Positions 7,632-21,111 of a stretch of 21,111 nt of DNA are shown here, one piece after another (position 1 is the first letter of the stretch; every line of letters begins with the position of its first letter). The stretch is from a virus: positions 1 to 21,111 of the IMG/VR virus record IMGVR_UViG_3300025769_001027; one strand, given 5' to 3'. Both the position numbers and the translations under genes were made by a program. The notes under the pieces are model-generated. The model had not been told where the DNA came from and did not search any database. It saw only the letters and a list, made by a program, of their open reading frames with translations.

Positions 7632-7848
7632 CGAACACCTCATCACTGTATGTGTAATAGAACCGTTCTCTGTGCATAGTATACAGTTCTGTAGGTATCA
7701 TACGCTTGTATTTCTCTCTGAGCAAGTCCTTTAGAACAAACTGTAGGTCTGAAAAGGACAGGCTGTACATCTCGTCTATAGCTAAATCTTCAGCCATACG
7801 CTCTACGTCTACATTCGTTACGTACTCATCCATTATGTTCTCATCCAT
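7618..7848 (-). CDS. Small hypothetical protein, 76 aa
   Basis: I do not recognise it. It is acidic at both ends with a helical middle (LSFSDLQFVLKDLLREKYKRM) and no signal peptide, membrane segment or cysteine. AGGAG stands 7 nt before the ATG at 7848, a strong ribosome-binding site, and the gene overlaps the thyX stop by 8 bp and the next gene by 14 bp, so translation is probably coupled to thyX. A second in-frame ATG five codons in is a less likely start. Confidence 0.72.
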   Translation of the reverse strand: MDENIMDEYVTNVDVERMAEDLAIDEMYSLSFSDLQFVLKDLLREKYKRMIPTELYTMHRERFYYTYSDEVFDEPV

Positions 7849-8500
7849 TGAAATTCTCCTTGAGTGCTGTCCAACTTGTCTCTAAATCATACAGGGTTAT
7901 AATCTTCTCGTCAATAAGATTTGCAATCAATCTACATTCTAACTGTGCGTCCGGTGTAGACCTTAATTTTACTACACGAGCAAAGGCAGGTAAAGAGCCT
8001 GTCCAGTACCACTCCGTCATCATGGACTGCGGTAAGATCATACGGGCTTGCTCCGGTGCTATTTCTTTGTCTTCTATCATGTGCTGATACAGTTCCGCTG
8101 CCTTAGTCATGAGTTCCCAATACTCTTTGAAGACTAAAGAATCCTGCTCCAACACGTACTCAGAAGACCCCTGTTTTTTATTGTCTGCCTTGATACGCCA
8201 CAACTGAGGATTATAAAAATCCGGTGGGCTGTCTACGTACCTACGGCTGACTTCATTCCACACTAGCCCTACCTGATGCTTCACTAGCTGCCTAGCGACG
8301 AACACAGGTGCTTTGACCCTGAATTGTAGCTGTACGTGTCCAAAGGGGGTCCAATGATTATGCTCTGCAAGGTATTTAATCAACCCTACATCACCTACTG
8401 ACATTTTAGAATGATGCTTATTAAAAGACACTCTTGCTGCGTTGACCACTGTTAAATCTGAACCCATGTGGTCTAATAGGTCCACTGTCATATCCGTCAT
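7841..8500 (-). CDS. thyX: FAD-dependent thymidylate synthase ThyX, divergent motif
   Basis: Makes dTMP from dUMP using FAD and methylene-tetrahydrofolate, supplying thymidylate together with the class II reductase in the same operon. The protein is 219 residues, a normal length. The signature region reads VARQLVKHQVGLVWNEVSRRY (68-88): the canonical RHR-x7-S appears as KHQ-x8-S (K74, H75, Q76, S85), with one extra residue before the conserved Asn-Glu. The C-terminal half is typical, with ARMILP, TEWYWTGSLPAF and KLRSTPDAQ, where R180 matches the dUMP-contacting Arg. N-terminal AARVSFNK and HNHWTPFGH are also family-like. The ATG at 8500 overlaps the upstream stop by 4 bp (ATGA). Confidence 0.93.
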   Translation of the reverse strand: MTDMTVDLLDHMGSDLTVVNAARVSFNKHHSKMSVGDVGLIKYLAEHNHWTPFGHVQLQFRVKAPVFVARQLVKHQVGLVWNEVSRRYVDSPPDFYNPQLWRIKADNKKQGSSEYVLEQDSLVFKEYWELMTKAAELYQHMIEDKEIAPEQARMILPQSMMTEWYWTGSLPAFARVVKLRSTPDAQLECRLIANLIDEKIITLYDLETSWTALKENFNG

Positions 8501-11511: not shown

Positions 11512-11931
11512 TTATCCTCTCTTGAGATTGTCTTTGATTACTTCGCGCACCCATATGATACGCTTTCTGCTATTAGTGTCTGCCGCCCAGTCTACCATCT
11601 CACCATCATGGATGCAAGTGATATGTCTATGGGTCAAGATTAGAAACGTCCCACGCTTTGGACACTTCCGCTTAGCTGTGACTAGCGTCTTGCCCATTGG
11701 TATATCACAAGGCACTATCCTATAGCCAAGCTCCCGAAGCGCTTGTTCATATACATGATGCGGCGTGGCTTTTCGGTCTGGTCTGCCTAGCCTTTGCATT
11801 ATCCTATATGCTTTGCCGAAGGCTACCTGAGCCGCCGCTGCTACTGCAATCACTGCGCAGCAATTTGTCTCGCGGTAGTATTTAGTAGCAACGTGCCGAA
11901 GCTTGTCGAAATCATGCTTGTGCTGTTTCAT
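11512..11931 (-). CDS. Putative papain/C39-like cysteine peptidase-fold protein
   Basis: A 139-residue protein with a Cys-His-Asp order fitting a papain-like fold: C24/C25 in YYRETNCCAVIAVAAAA, at the start of a helix as in these peptidases, H101/H103 in FLILTHRHITCIHDG, and D114 in MVDW. Such proteins are frequent in phages and are generally unassigned. It is the most promoter-distal gene of the leftward arm toward the centre, so probably expressed among the first; attack on a host protein is one possibility (inference). GAGG is 7 nt before the ATG at 11931, and a 44-nt hairpin lies 21 nt upstream. Confidence 0.6.
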   Translation of the reverse strand: MKQHKHDFDKLRHVATKYYRETNCCAVIAVAAAAQVAFGKAYRIMQRLGRPDRKATPHHVYEQALRELGYRIVPCDIPMGKTLVTAKRKCPKRGTFLILTHRHITCIHDGEMVDWAADTNSRKRIIWVREVIKDNLKRG

Positions 11932-11951
11932 TGTCTAACCTCACTTTTCTA

Positions 11952-11995
11952 AGCGTTAAACTATAGCAAGCGCTTGCTTGCCATAGGCTAACGCT
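11952..11995. repeat. 44-nt near-perfect hairpin
   Basis: AGCGTTA pairs with TAACGCT (11952-11958/11989-11995), then a 2x2 mismatch, CTAT with ATAG (11961-11964/11983-11986), a 1x1 mismatch, and GCAAGC with GCTTGC (11966-11971/11976-11981) around a GCTT tetraloop. The symmetry is exact along the whole length. It sits 21 nt before the leftward ATG at 11931. Confidence 0.85.
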
Positions 11996-12072
11996 CAGCA
12001 ATGGACCCGCCTAACTCTTACACCAATCCAAAAGGACATTCTCAAGCCATGCTAGCGGATCCGCTGAGCGTT
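11990..12072. repeat. 10-bp inverted repeat AACGCTCAGC / GCTGAGCGTT with inner palindrome
   Basis: AACGCTCAGC (11990-11999) and GCTGAGCGTT (12063-12072) are perfect inverted repeats 63 nt apart. The right arm overlaps the 12-nt palindrome AGCGGATCCGCT (12054-12065). The left arm shares the AACGCT word with the 44-nt hairpin. Confidence 0.75.
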
Positions 12073-12075
12073 TAT

Positions 12076-12148
12076 CCCTAGCTAGTATGCTTCGCTCGGC
12101 TTACGGTATCCCGTGGCCTAGTATGCGTCGCTAAGCGCTATGCTAGGG
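12076..12148. repeat. Direct repeat CTAGTATGCkTCGCT within inverted CCCTAGC / GCTAGGG
   Basis: CTAGTATGCTTCGCT (12082-12096) and CTAGTATGCGTCGCT (12118-12132) differ at one base, 36 nt apart. They are enclosed by CCCTAGC (12076-12082) and GCTAGGG (12142-12148). Confidence 0.75.
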
Positions 12149-12172
12149 TGCCTTGTAGTGTTTGCTCGCTTG

Positions 12173-12213
12173 GTCTTAGGTAAACTCACGCACCACGGGT
12201 GCGACCCTAAGAC
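12173..12213. repeat. Nested stem-loop GTCTTAGG / CCTAAGAC
   Basis: Outer 8-bp arms at 12173-12180 and 12206-12213, inner 6-bp stem CGCACC/GGTGCG (12189-12194/12198-12203) with a 3-nt loop. The left arm contains TCTTAGGTAAACT (12174-12186), the exact reverse complement of 10244-10256 beside the leftward promoter. Confidence 0.8.
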
Positions 12214-12387
12214 TACTTGTTTCTCCCGCAAGCCTTTACCTCAAGGCATGGCTAAAGGATGGATCAAGGCCCTATGGTTTGTCAAGCGTTTTTTTAAATT
12301 TTTTTTGATTTTTTTGAAATGCCTTTCGATTCAATGGTTTATCGTTGAAATTTTTTTACACTTGCCGCGTCTTTGCCTTTCTTGAGG

Positions 12388-12419
12388 CTTGCTGAGGGCT
12401 TGCTTGTGATGTCAGCAAG
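12388..12419. repeat. Inverted repeat CTTGCTGA / TCAGCAAG
   Basis: Perfect 8-bp arms at 12388-12395 and 12412-12419 with a 16-nt loop that contains another GCTTGC word. It is one of several CTTGC/GCAAG repeats in this region. Further short inverted repeats lie at 12446-12451/12467-12472 (GGGATC/GATCCC) and 12555-12561/12588-12594 (CGTGTCT/AGACACG). Confidence 0.65.
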
Positions 12420-12643
12420 GCGGGCTTAGATTTGCCTTGTGAGATGGGATCGATGGGGTGCTATAGGATCCCGCTTAGCCTCTCGCATGTTTGCCTTGTG
12501 GCTACCGCATGGCCCGCTTTTGGCATGTCTTGCGCCTTACTCCGCGCCTGCCCGCGTGTCTCTAGACTTACTGAGGGGGTTTTTTTAAGACACGGGGGAG
12601 GGGAGATTACTTGACGGTTTATTTGTAGTAGCACCCCAAGCAC

Positions 12644-12747
12644 AAAATAGGTCAAATTTGAGTAAAAAATAGGTAAAAGTGAAGTTTATTCATGAATGAT
12701 ATCCCATTGATTCCTCTAAGGAATACGTAAGTTAGTGCTTACTAACT
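12644..12747. promoter_or_regulatory. Direct repeats and palindromes upstream of the rightward promoter
   Basis: AAAATAGGT occurs at 12644-12652 and 12666-12674, 22 bp apart, close to two helical turns. Downstream are TTCCT-cta-AGGAA (12711-12723) and AGTTAGT-gctt-ACTAACT (12730-12747). Same-face spacing and nearness to the promoter (60-165 bp upstream) fit activator or repressor sites; no protein can be named. Confidence 0.5.
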
Positions 12748-12808
12748 AAAGGCAAGCCCCTGTGTAAGACAAATCTACACTTTATTTACCAAAAGTAGCT
12801 AAAAGTTC

Positions 12809-12837
12809 TTGACTTTTGCTAAAAAATATGCTATAAT
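12809..12837 (+). promoter_or_regulatory. Strong extended -10 rightward promoter for the packaging operon
   Basis: TTGACT (12809-12814), 17-bp spacer, TATAAT (12832-12837), with TGC directly before the -10 (extended -10). Transcription should begin near 12844. The -35 lies in an inverted repeat AAAAGT-tcttg-ACTTTT (12801-12817), a possible operator. It would serve the genes from 12967 onward. Confidence 0.88.
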
Positions 12838-12851
12838 ATAAAGCATATACC

Positions 12852-12924
12852 ATAGGTTGCTTTCAGTTAGTTCTTTAATTAATAAATTAAGGAATAAACT
12901 AATCAACATTCTGAAGCAGCCTAT
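12852..12924 (+). promoter_or_regulatory. Structured 5' leader of the rightward operon
   Basis: ATAGGTTGCTTTCAG (12852-12866) pairs with CTGAAGCAGCCTAT (12911-12924): 14 pairs with one G-U and one bulged U. Inside, TTAGTT (12867-12872) pairs with AACTAA (12897-12902) and CTTTAATT (12873-12880) with AATTAAGG (12885-12892) around an AATA loop. It begins a few nucleotides after the predicted start of transcription and ends 30 nt before the Shine-Dalgarno, so it could stabilise or regulate the late mRNA. Confidence 0.7.
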
Positions 12925-12966
12925 AGTAACTTAAGTATCTCCAAAGAAAATACGGAGGGAATACTA

Positions 12967-13374
12967 TTGTCCGAAGAAAGTATAGAGTTAGAGAGTGTGT
13001 CTACTCCAAAGAGGCGGGGTAGACCTAAGAAAGATTTAGTTAAGTCCAATAAAAGAGGGTCTAGAGGGGCCATAGGTAGACCCAAAGGGGATGCAGCTAT
13101 CATCAACGAGTACAAAGCTCGTATGTTAGCAAGCCCTAAGTCCCAAAAAGTCTTAGATAGCATCATGAATGCTGCGCTTAATGATGACCATAAGAATCAA
13201 GCAGCAGCATGGAAATTACTAATGGACCGTATGTTGCCCATTAGTTACTTTGAAAAAGATAAGCTTAGTGGTGGTAGGAATAGTGTCTCCATTACGATAA
13301 CTGGGATTAACTCAGAAGCCACCATAGACACTAATAACACCATAGACGGAGACTACACAGAGTATGCCGAATAG
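12967..13374 (+). CDS. Putative terminase small subunit (TTG start)
   Basis: A 135-residue basic protein with two AT-hook-like stretches, RRGRPKK (16-22) and RGAIGRPKG (33-41), then a helical part: YKARMLASPKSQKVLDSIMNAAL, NDDHKNQAAAWKLLMDRMLPISYFEK. This layout matches the small protein before the large terminase in related podoviruses; it would recognise DNA for packaging. The call is from position and similarity in pattern, not a proven motif. The start is TTG at 12967, with a strong GGAGGGA ending 7 nt upstream; no ATG or GTG codon in this frame is better placed. Confidence 0.7.
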   Translation: MSEESIELESVSTPKRRGRPKKDLVKSNKRGSRGAIGRPKGDAAIINEYKARMLASPKSQKVLDSIMNAALNDDHKNQAAAWKLLMDRMLPISYFEKDKLSGGRNSVSITITGINSEATIDTNNTIDGDYTEYAE

Positions 13375-20435: not shown

Positions 20436-21111
20436 ATGGCGTTATTTAGAGGTGACGGAGGGTCCGGAGACAGCACTACGGATGCTTACGCCAGTCAAAT
20501 AGCTACATACGCTCAAACTGCTACTACAAAAGCAAATGAAGCTTCAACGTCTGCTAGTGAAGCAGCCAACAGTGCAACTGATGCAGCTACTTCAGAATCT
20601 AATGCAGCAACCAGTGAAACTAACGCTGCATCAAGTGCTACCAATGCGGCAACTAGTGCTTCCAACGCATCTACATCAGCGACTAACGCATCTACTAGCG
20701 AGTCCAATGCGTCCACTAGCGAGACTAACGCAGCAACTTCGGCTACAAATGCAGCCAGTAGTGCTACAACAGCAACAACTAAAGCATCAGAAGCATCTAC
20801 TAGCGCAACCAACGCTGCAACTTCAGAAACTAACGCAGCAACCAGCGCTTCCAATGCTTCTACCAGTGCTACTAATGCAGCCACTAGCGAGACTAACGCA
20901 GCAGCGAGTGAAACGGCAGCAGCAGCCAGTGAGACAGCAGCAGCTACATCAGAAACTAATGCTGGTACTTCAGAAACAAACGCTGCAACCAGTGCAACTA
21001 GTGCTTCTACATCAGCAACTAATGCAGCAGCTAGTGCTACTAATGCAGCCACAAGTGAAACTAATGCTGGGACTTCAGCAACTAACGCAGCCTCAAGTGC
21101 TACAGCCGCAG
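20436..21111 (+). CDS. Tail fibre-type repeat protein, 5' part, runs off the window
   Basis: From the ATG at 20436 (GGAG 6 nt upstream) the frame is open to the edge, 225 codons. After a short Gly-rich head (MALFRGDGGSGDST) it becomes a long run of 7-residue repeats close to A-T-S-x-T-N-A (for example ATSETNA, STSATNA), built only from Ala, Ser, Thr, Asn and Glu, with 21-nt DNA periodicity. Such Ala/Ser/Thr heptads make fibrous shafts, like the phage tail-fibre repeat (PF03406) in lambda Stf, so this is likely the tail-fibre or side-fibre protein that contacts the host. The receptor-binding end is outside the window. Confidence 0.85.
   Translation, partial: MALFRGDGGSGDSTTDAYASQIATYAQTATTKANEASTSASEAANSATDAATSESNAATSETNAASSATNAATSASNASTSATNASTSESNASTSETNAATSATNAASSATTATTKASEASTSATNAATSETNAATSASNASTSATNAATSETNAAASETAAAASETAAATSETNAGTSETNAATSATSASTSATNAAASATNAATSETNAGTSATNAASSATAA

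Follow-up and report, generated by a model that had tools for sequence, protein, structure and literature searches.

The window analysed here, a 21,111-base virus record without annotation, carries two divergent gene arms separated by a gap of 1.04 kb without a plausible gene (11932–12966), and the question raised by this locus is what the gap encodes. It lies between a leftward gene at 11931–11512 and the rightward start, at 12967, of a putative TerS gene, assigned from its position and with no PHROG match. The leftward genes include a PolA-type DNA polymerase, a primase-helicase and a Cas4-type exonuclease, as well as an ORF at 7841–8500 which we take to be a ThyX-type thymidylate synthase, and the rightward genes include an endolysin-like gene, TerL (also identified by homology) and a portal gene. 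The closest named relatives of the polymerase are the Pelagibacter phages HTVC103P, HTVC104P and HTVC115P, which are distant (48–50%); the portal gave weak HMO-2011-type matches, and TerL at 82–91% identity is encoded by many IMG/VR contigs.

The preliminary description had regarded 11932–12660 as a gene-less, repeat-dense centre, and perfect inverted repeats (at least 7 bp, loop at most 80 nt) were counted against 100 shuffles per interval. The whole interval holds nine such repeats compared with 2.3 in shuffled sequence, a number reached by 0 of 100 shuffles. However, the enrichment is confined to the left part: 11946–12250 holds six repeats (1.2 shuffled, reached by 1 of 100), whereas the two repeats in 12251–12660 are at chance level (1.24 shuffled, reached by 34 of 100). 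Similarly, 11901–12326 aligns with the loci of the relatives L003 and L004 at 76%, while BLASTN against relatives gave nothing useful for 12327–12575 and only a weak 73% block from 12576 onwards; L003 and L004 carry unrelated short tandem repeats where the window has 12327–12575. Since the alignment ends at the same boundary as the repeat enrichment, the repeats at 12388–12594 were placed outside the feature. The gap is real and its left part exceeds shuffled expectation, aligns with relatives and has stems that compensate; the repeats reported in the right part (12388–12419, 12446–12472 and 12555–12594) are not above chance and stand in a stretch of which BLASTN recovers next to nothing in relatives.

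Compensatory changes in the left part show selection for pairing at the RNA level, on the minus strand (Table 1; RNA position n corresponds to window position 12251 − n). In an alignment of nine close members (A7) the declared structure is 98.5% paired, with both sides changed in 26 of the 65 pairs, and the covariation score was 0.447 compared with 0.205 shuffled (reached by 0 of 500) and at most 0.083 in slid controls; P7, which is misaligned between subgroups in A7, was left out of this count. A covariance-model alignment of the 21 best hits gave 93.0% paired cells, changes on both sides in 31 of 34 pairs and a score of 0.764 (0.202 shuffled; slid controls at most 0.142), with the pairing somewhat inflated because the rows are fitted to the model, which only nine of them built and 12 of the 21 did not. 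The helices of domain 1 are 90–96% paired in alignment A11 (20 distinct rows), with changes on both sides in 25 of 27 pairs, and P5 in domain 2 is 92.8% paired, with both sides changed at six of its seven pairs. P3, for example, reads GUCUUAGG/CCUAAGAC in the window, UUUUGAGG/CCUCAAAG in L003 and UUUAAGGG/CCCUUAAG in L083, the pairing being kept and the sequence changed; likewise, P4 occurs in several sequence versions, every one paired. The unpaired boxes CGGGAGnAAUACUUAG, AUAGCG and CAUACUAGC recur across the family alignment.

Table 1 Features of the leader RNA locus in window coordinates, all on the minus strand
Feature	Position	Strand	Details
−35 hexamer TTGACA, leftward promoter	12280–12285	−	Sequence and conservation
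−10-like hexamer CATCCT	12256–12261	−	18 nt after the −35 hexamer; ends 5 nt before the conserved RNA 5′ end
Structured leader RNA	11945–12250	−	~306 nt (about 310); alignment, covariation, RNAalifold, folding z-score
Domain 1	12149–12248	−	Closed by P1 (12248–12242 with 12155–12149)
P2	12233–12228/12169–12164	−	Domain 1
Internal-loop box CGGGAGAAACAAGUA	12214–12228	−	Conserved in A11; CGGGAGnAAUACUUAG in most distant members
P3	12213–12206/12180–12173	−	Domain 1
P4 hairpin	12203–12189	−	Domain 1
PK1	12110–12199	−	P4 loop CCCGUGG (12199–12193) with CCACGGG (12116–12110); complementarity kept across family
Domain 2	12076–12148	−	Closed by P5 (12148–12142 with 12082–12076)
Conserved box AUAGCG	12141–12136	−	Domain 2, A11
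Conserved box CAUACUAGC	12089–12081	−	Domain 2, A11
A:B	11990–12072	−	Arm A AACGCUCAGC (12072–12063) with arm B GCUGAGCGUU (11999–11990); closes domain 3
P7	12062–12055/12010–12003	−	Domain 3
P8	12048–12044/12017–12013	−	Domain 3
B:C	11952–11995	−	Arm B part AGCGUUA (11995–11989) with arm C UAACGCU (11958–11952); excludes A:B
P10 hairpin	11986–11976/11971–11961	−	Extends B:C; covariation with B:C
Shine-Dalgarno GUGAGG	11939–11944	−	7 nt downstream of arm C, 7 nt before the AUG at 11931
Downstream gene	11512–11931	−	139 aa; PHROG_3754 (unknown function), PHROGs E 3.6e-11

The strand assignment is supported by several measures. The RNAalifold energy is −176.5 for the minus strand compared with −147.8 for the plus strand, and the folding z-scores of 11932–12250 are −6.2 and −4.2, respectively; the sense strand also scores better than the opposite strand in groups G3–G6. 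G-U pairs suit the minus strand as well; for example, the U-G at the third P1 pair in L083 and L114 would, on the plus strand, read as mismatched C-A. In combination with covariation across the family and a covariance model that reaches distant members, these data support the structured RNA that the preliminary description had listed as one of three options, where it gave neither the strand, nor the promoter, nor the tie to one downstream gene. Four of its inverted repeats (11952–11995, 11990–12072, 12076–12148 and 12173–12213) correspond to the helices B:C, A:B, P5 and P3, with compensatory changes in all four, and the CTTGC/GCAAG words that it saw recurring throughout fall, inside the RNA, mostly in stems P2 and P10; no periodic iteron array was found.

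The two helical domains are joined by a loop–loop (kissing) pairing, PK1, as shown by covarying complementarity between the P4 loop and a segment ~83 nt downstream within domain 2 (6–7 bp). All PK1 pairs are kept in A7, and at least 12 different complementary versions are present in the family at matching positions: CCCGUGG/CCACGGG, CCCAUGG/CCAUGGG, CCCUUGG/CCAAGGG, CAGUGG/CCACUG, CCUAGG/CCUAGG, CCAAGG/CCUUGG, CCACGG/CCGUGG, CCGAGG/CCUCGG, GCCGCGGU/GCCGCGGC, CUACGG/CCGUAG, CCACAGG/CCUGUGG and GCCAAGGG/CCCUUGGC. The family search takes the best of many candidates, and the argument is carried by the constant place of the segment and by its flanks, which match (CAAUAGC or GAUACCG) in many members, with near-constant spacing.

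Downstream of these domains, compensatory changes show that two mutually exclusive pairings of arm B are both kept. Among the close copies A:B is 97.8% paired, with both sides changed at four of ten pairs, and B:C together with P10 is 98.1% paired with eight doubly changed pairs (covariation 0.545 compared with 0.269 shuffled; slid controls at most 0.137). Both are also kept in L086, L114, L117, L123, L139, L147, L158 and L188, and A:B equivalents are found in many distant leaders; arms A, B and C in diverged groups read GAAUAACC, GGUUAUUCAC and GUGAAUAACU and similar. Conservation of both pairings suggests that A:B and B:C are alternative functional states. Forced folds gave closely similar energies for A:B and B:C in the window (−145.2 vs −145.0 kcal/mol), L123 (−102.2 vs −103.1 kcal/mol) and L139 (−118.6 vs −120.8 kcal/mol). 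In several members (L003, L129) B:C is favoured by up to 15 kcal/mol, and given this advantage B:C may simply be the final fold. With the B:C fold the Shine-Dalgarno sequence is predicted to be more open in the window, L003 and L086, and less open in L117, L118 and L139. As we read the forced folds, a freed arm C is able to cover the Shine-Dalgarno sequence in the window and L003 (CGCUU/AAGUG, CACUU/GAGUG). Consequently, A:B would be the off state there; L117, L118 and L139 do not follow this pattern.

A putative leftward promoter precedes the RNA. Its −35 hexamer TTGACA is kept in L003, L004, L083, L087 and L089 and reads TTGCAA in L086/L088. The −10-like hexamer of the window matches TATAAT at only 3/6 positions; the corresponding hexamer is TATTCT, CATTCT or CATACT in close relatives and TATAAT, TATACT or TATAGT in distant ones, and L117 has the full consensus, TTGACA-16-TATAAT. 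Promoter scores of at least 9/12 were obtained for 27 of 43 leaders, compared with 8.8 expected from shuffles. Promoter position and conservation would place the RNA 5′ end at about 12250. At the other end, GAGG followed by 7 nt and ATG is kept in most close relatives. No intrinsic terminator was predicted at B:C, and the 3′ hairpin was rejected as a terminator candidate; nor was one predicted between RNA and gene in the window.

The RNA was found to be tied to a single gene. A total of 47 distinct leaders of this gene were collected, and iterative nhmmer searches starting from nine close copies joined 43 of them into one RNA family, recruiting L139/L140, then L121, L123 and L127-type leaders, and then the rest; no decoy scored below E 2.8 at any round in 699,254 bases of TerL relatives without the gene. 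The family claim leaves out four leaders (L029/L119, L122, L131 and L134). These are likewise long and have a 3′ hairpin ahead of the Shine-Dalgarno sequence, but the sequence profile did not join them; either they have diverged extremely far, or the gene has a second class of leader. The family members are all from metagenomic contigs, some of them near-duplicates. A covariance model of domains 1 and 2 built only from the nine close copies (R1) found 12 full-length members outside its training set, each upstream of the gene, at E values from 7e-17 to 0.008 (L139/L140 7e-17 and 4e-16; L190 2.5e-12; L183 3e-5; also L162/L164/L160, L128, L179/L196 and L127/L129, below 0.01), and no match below E 0.01 among the gene-less relatives searched.

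The gene is present at every locus carrying the RNA, and TerL relatives without the gene are also without the RNA (L006, L008, L010, L011, L015 and L049). L006 matches L004 at 93% identity across its right flank, from L006:1823 onwards, but the promoter, the RNA and the gene are missing together, and the first leftward gene is a homologue of the window's 11247 gene. Wherever a locus extends far enough to include TerS, the cassette comes first among the leftward genes and points away from TerS. Linkage to the gene and homology across divergent phages are thus shown by these comparisons, and they are best read as gain and loss of the RNA together with its gene. The RNA leads directly into the Shine-Dalgarno sequence of the gene in the leaders examined other than L087, where a 42-codon ORF (MITLIVFVAIMAG..., 1800–1935) is inserted between the Shine-Dalgarno sequence of the RNA and the peptidase start. 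The inserted ORF uses the Shine-Dalgarno region of the RNA and stops just before the peptidase start, which implies that the output of the RNA need not be the peptidase-like gene alone.

The gene product probably has a papain-like peptidase fold. Its AlphaFold2 model (pLDDT 84.7) gave as best Foldseek matches Josephin domains, the pseudomurein endoisopeptidase PeiR and C39 peptidase domains (probability ~0.9, E 0.04 or more), and no Pfam family and no convincing PDB sequence match were found for the protein. Cys25, His103 and Asp114 are invariant in 18 homologues, and a protein profile search gave homologues down to 29–38% identity. The protein may be an active peptidase. A distant homologue occurs in Pakpunavirus phages of Pseudomonas; the copy in PaP1 (L137, 2489–2971) was set aside from the leader set. 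There it lies second in its gene run, following a divergent gap of ~700 bp, and R1 gave no match at threshold at this locus.

Searches beyond the family gave little. There was no nucleotide match to the element in 50,697 phage records, and conserved-word patterns found five new loci in viral contigs (later pattern variants gave chance matches only) and none in 84,980 species genomes; no member of the protein family was confirmed among genome contigs. Rfam 15 gave no match in the window at gathering score and, at E ≤ 5, only chance-like mir-515 and snoR10 hits, the former covering only the hairpin 11946–12001 and dismissed as such; twelve distant loci gave no match at E ≤ 2. No tRNA or tmRNA was found. 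The searchable literature held no description of the RNA, with most subscription journals outside this coverage and novelty hence not proven. From these comparisons, the RNA is best read as a previously undescribed family, forming a new class of switch-like phage leader RNA.

On balance, we consider it probable, to a moderate degree, that the left part of the gap is a ~310-nt leader RNA acting as a cis switch on translation of the peptidase-like gene. Leftward transcription from the sigma-70-type promoter at 12285–12256 would produce this RNA as the 5′ leader of an mRNA whose first gene is the peptidase-like one. Its fold would comprise two helical domains, linked through PK1, and a third domain that A:B closes; alternatively, arm B would pair with arm C, immediately before the Shine-Dalgarno sequence. 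The decision between A:B and B:C could be taken by a metabolite, by a protein (perhaps the gene's own product) or by co-transcriptional timing, and the choice of pairing would set translation of the gene. We infer both the transcription start and translation of this gene as the output; if the RNA is a switch, translation is the likelier output, since no intrinsic terminator is predicted at B:C. Two points that count against the switch reading are the differing direction in which Shine-Dalgarno accessibility changes among members and the size of the RNA, since riboswitch aptamers of 310 nt would be unusually large. Size and kissing architecture, exceeding those of most cis-regulators, speak instead for a stand-alone RNA processed from the mRNA and acting in trans with the gene as partner, as an RNA–protein particle with the peptidase-like protein or as a decoy or counter-defence RNA; in that case A:B would represent the mature fold, and B:C would serve as a hairpin for processing. 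That RNA and gene come and go together at the start of the leftward operon fits this proposal, as does the L087 insertion, which parts the gene from the RNA with the RNA kept. However, the other leaders examined run straight into the gene's Shine-Dalgarno sequence and no terminator separates RNA and gene in the window, and we regard a stand-alone RNA as rather unlikely.

The RNA also stands at the head of a long run of leftward genes, replication genes among them, and it might serve the operon as a whole, by put/nut-like antitermination of RNA polymerase or by stabilising the whole ~11-kb leftward transcript. This is improbable, as close relatives have the same operon without the RNA, which follows the peptidase gene and not the operon, and as the put sites of HK022 are far smaller than ~310 nt. 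A self-cleaving or self-splicing ribozyme is more improbable still: the unpaired boxes and the pseudoknot resemble a catalytic core, but no Rfam ribozyme or intron model matched at E 2 (twelve distant loci) or E 5 (window), and the RNA starts just after the promoter and so leaves no 5′ exon. Least credible, and disfavoured, are the remaining options of the preliminary description, an iteron-type replication origin or a set of DNA sites bound by a regulator. An AT-rich tract (12288–12320) and a change of GC-skew sign at ~12250 would suit an origin. The sign change does exist, but it follows the divergent gene orientation; furthermore, no iteron array was found, close relatives that share the replication gene types are without the element, and the feature does not extend into the right half of the interval. 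Helix sequences that vary with the pairing kept are the opposite of the conservation of protein sites.

The proposed leader switch resembles several known systems in part. Riboswitches with kissing loops and alternative expression-platform helices include the lysine and cobalamin classes, which the phage RNA would match in leader position, multi-helix domain, loop–loop pairing and exclusive helices by the Shine-Dalgarno sequence; in contrast, it is larger, has no Rfam match and precedes a phage peptidase-like gene. The put antiterminator RNAs of HK022 are likewise cis-encoded structured RNAs at the start of an early phage operon, but the present RNA has about 310 nt and a pseudoknot, and follows one gene. 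In type III toxin-antitoxin systems (ToxIN) a structured RNA adjoins, and is co-inherited with, one small protein gene; such a system does not fit here, as neither short tandem RNA repeats nor a terminator before the gene were found and the protein is predicted to be papain-like and not an RNase. GOLLD, a large RNA, occurs in phages. Like it, the leader RNA is large and highly structured, as are ROOL and OLE, but it is smaller than these, has no Rfam match and is bound to one downstream gene and its Shine-Dalgarno sequence. GOLLD, ROOL and OLE are large ornate phage and bacterial RNAs of unknown function (PMC12286853).

It is rare to find large structured RNAs that covary deeply and belong to no known family, and most of those whose role is understood are riboswitches, ribozymes or RNA–protein machines. 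The present RNA is compact, and with its 47 leaders, its defined promoter and start codon and its one partner gene it lends itself to direct tests of ligand, partner and switching. The cassette is gained and lost at the first-transcribed position in a group of uncultivated podovirus-like phages, a position at which one would expect functions in host takeover or counter-defence. Tentatively, the element might be an RNA machine of a kind new to phages: bistable, ~310 nt long, with a kissing loop, and moving together with a papain-like peptidase. If so, it could act early in infection, either by sensing the host or the state of its defences or as an RNA–protein effector.

The remainder of the window showed further features. 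A second conserved non-coding block on the plus strand (12576–12678; CGGGGGAGGG, about 30 nt, then GTAGTA) was detected in 15 of 28 relatives, both ones that carry the RNA cassette and ones that do not, and could be a packaging or rightward regulatory site. A strong extended promoter at 12809–12837 (plus strand; TTGACT-17-TATAAT, 11/12, with TG before the −10) drives the rightward TerS side; BLASTN shows it to be conserved in many relatives, and several relatives have further, similar copies at other places; the window has a single copy. The rightward TerS leader (12800–12949, plus strand) folds better than shuffled sequence (z −4.3), with an AT-rich hairpin at ~12867–12902. Finally, a low-complexity repetitive stretch with strong AT and GC skew (20513–21052) lies opposite an ALVALVAAL-repeat ORF, likely a repetitive coiled-coil-type protein running off the right end.
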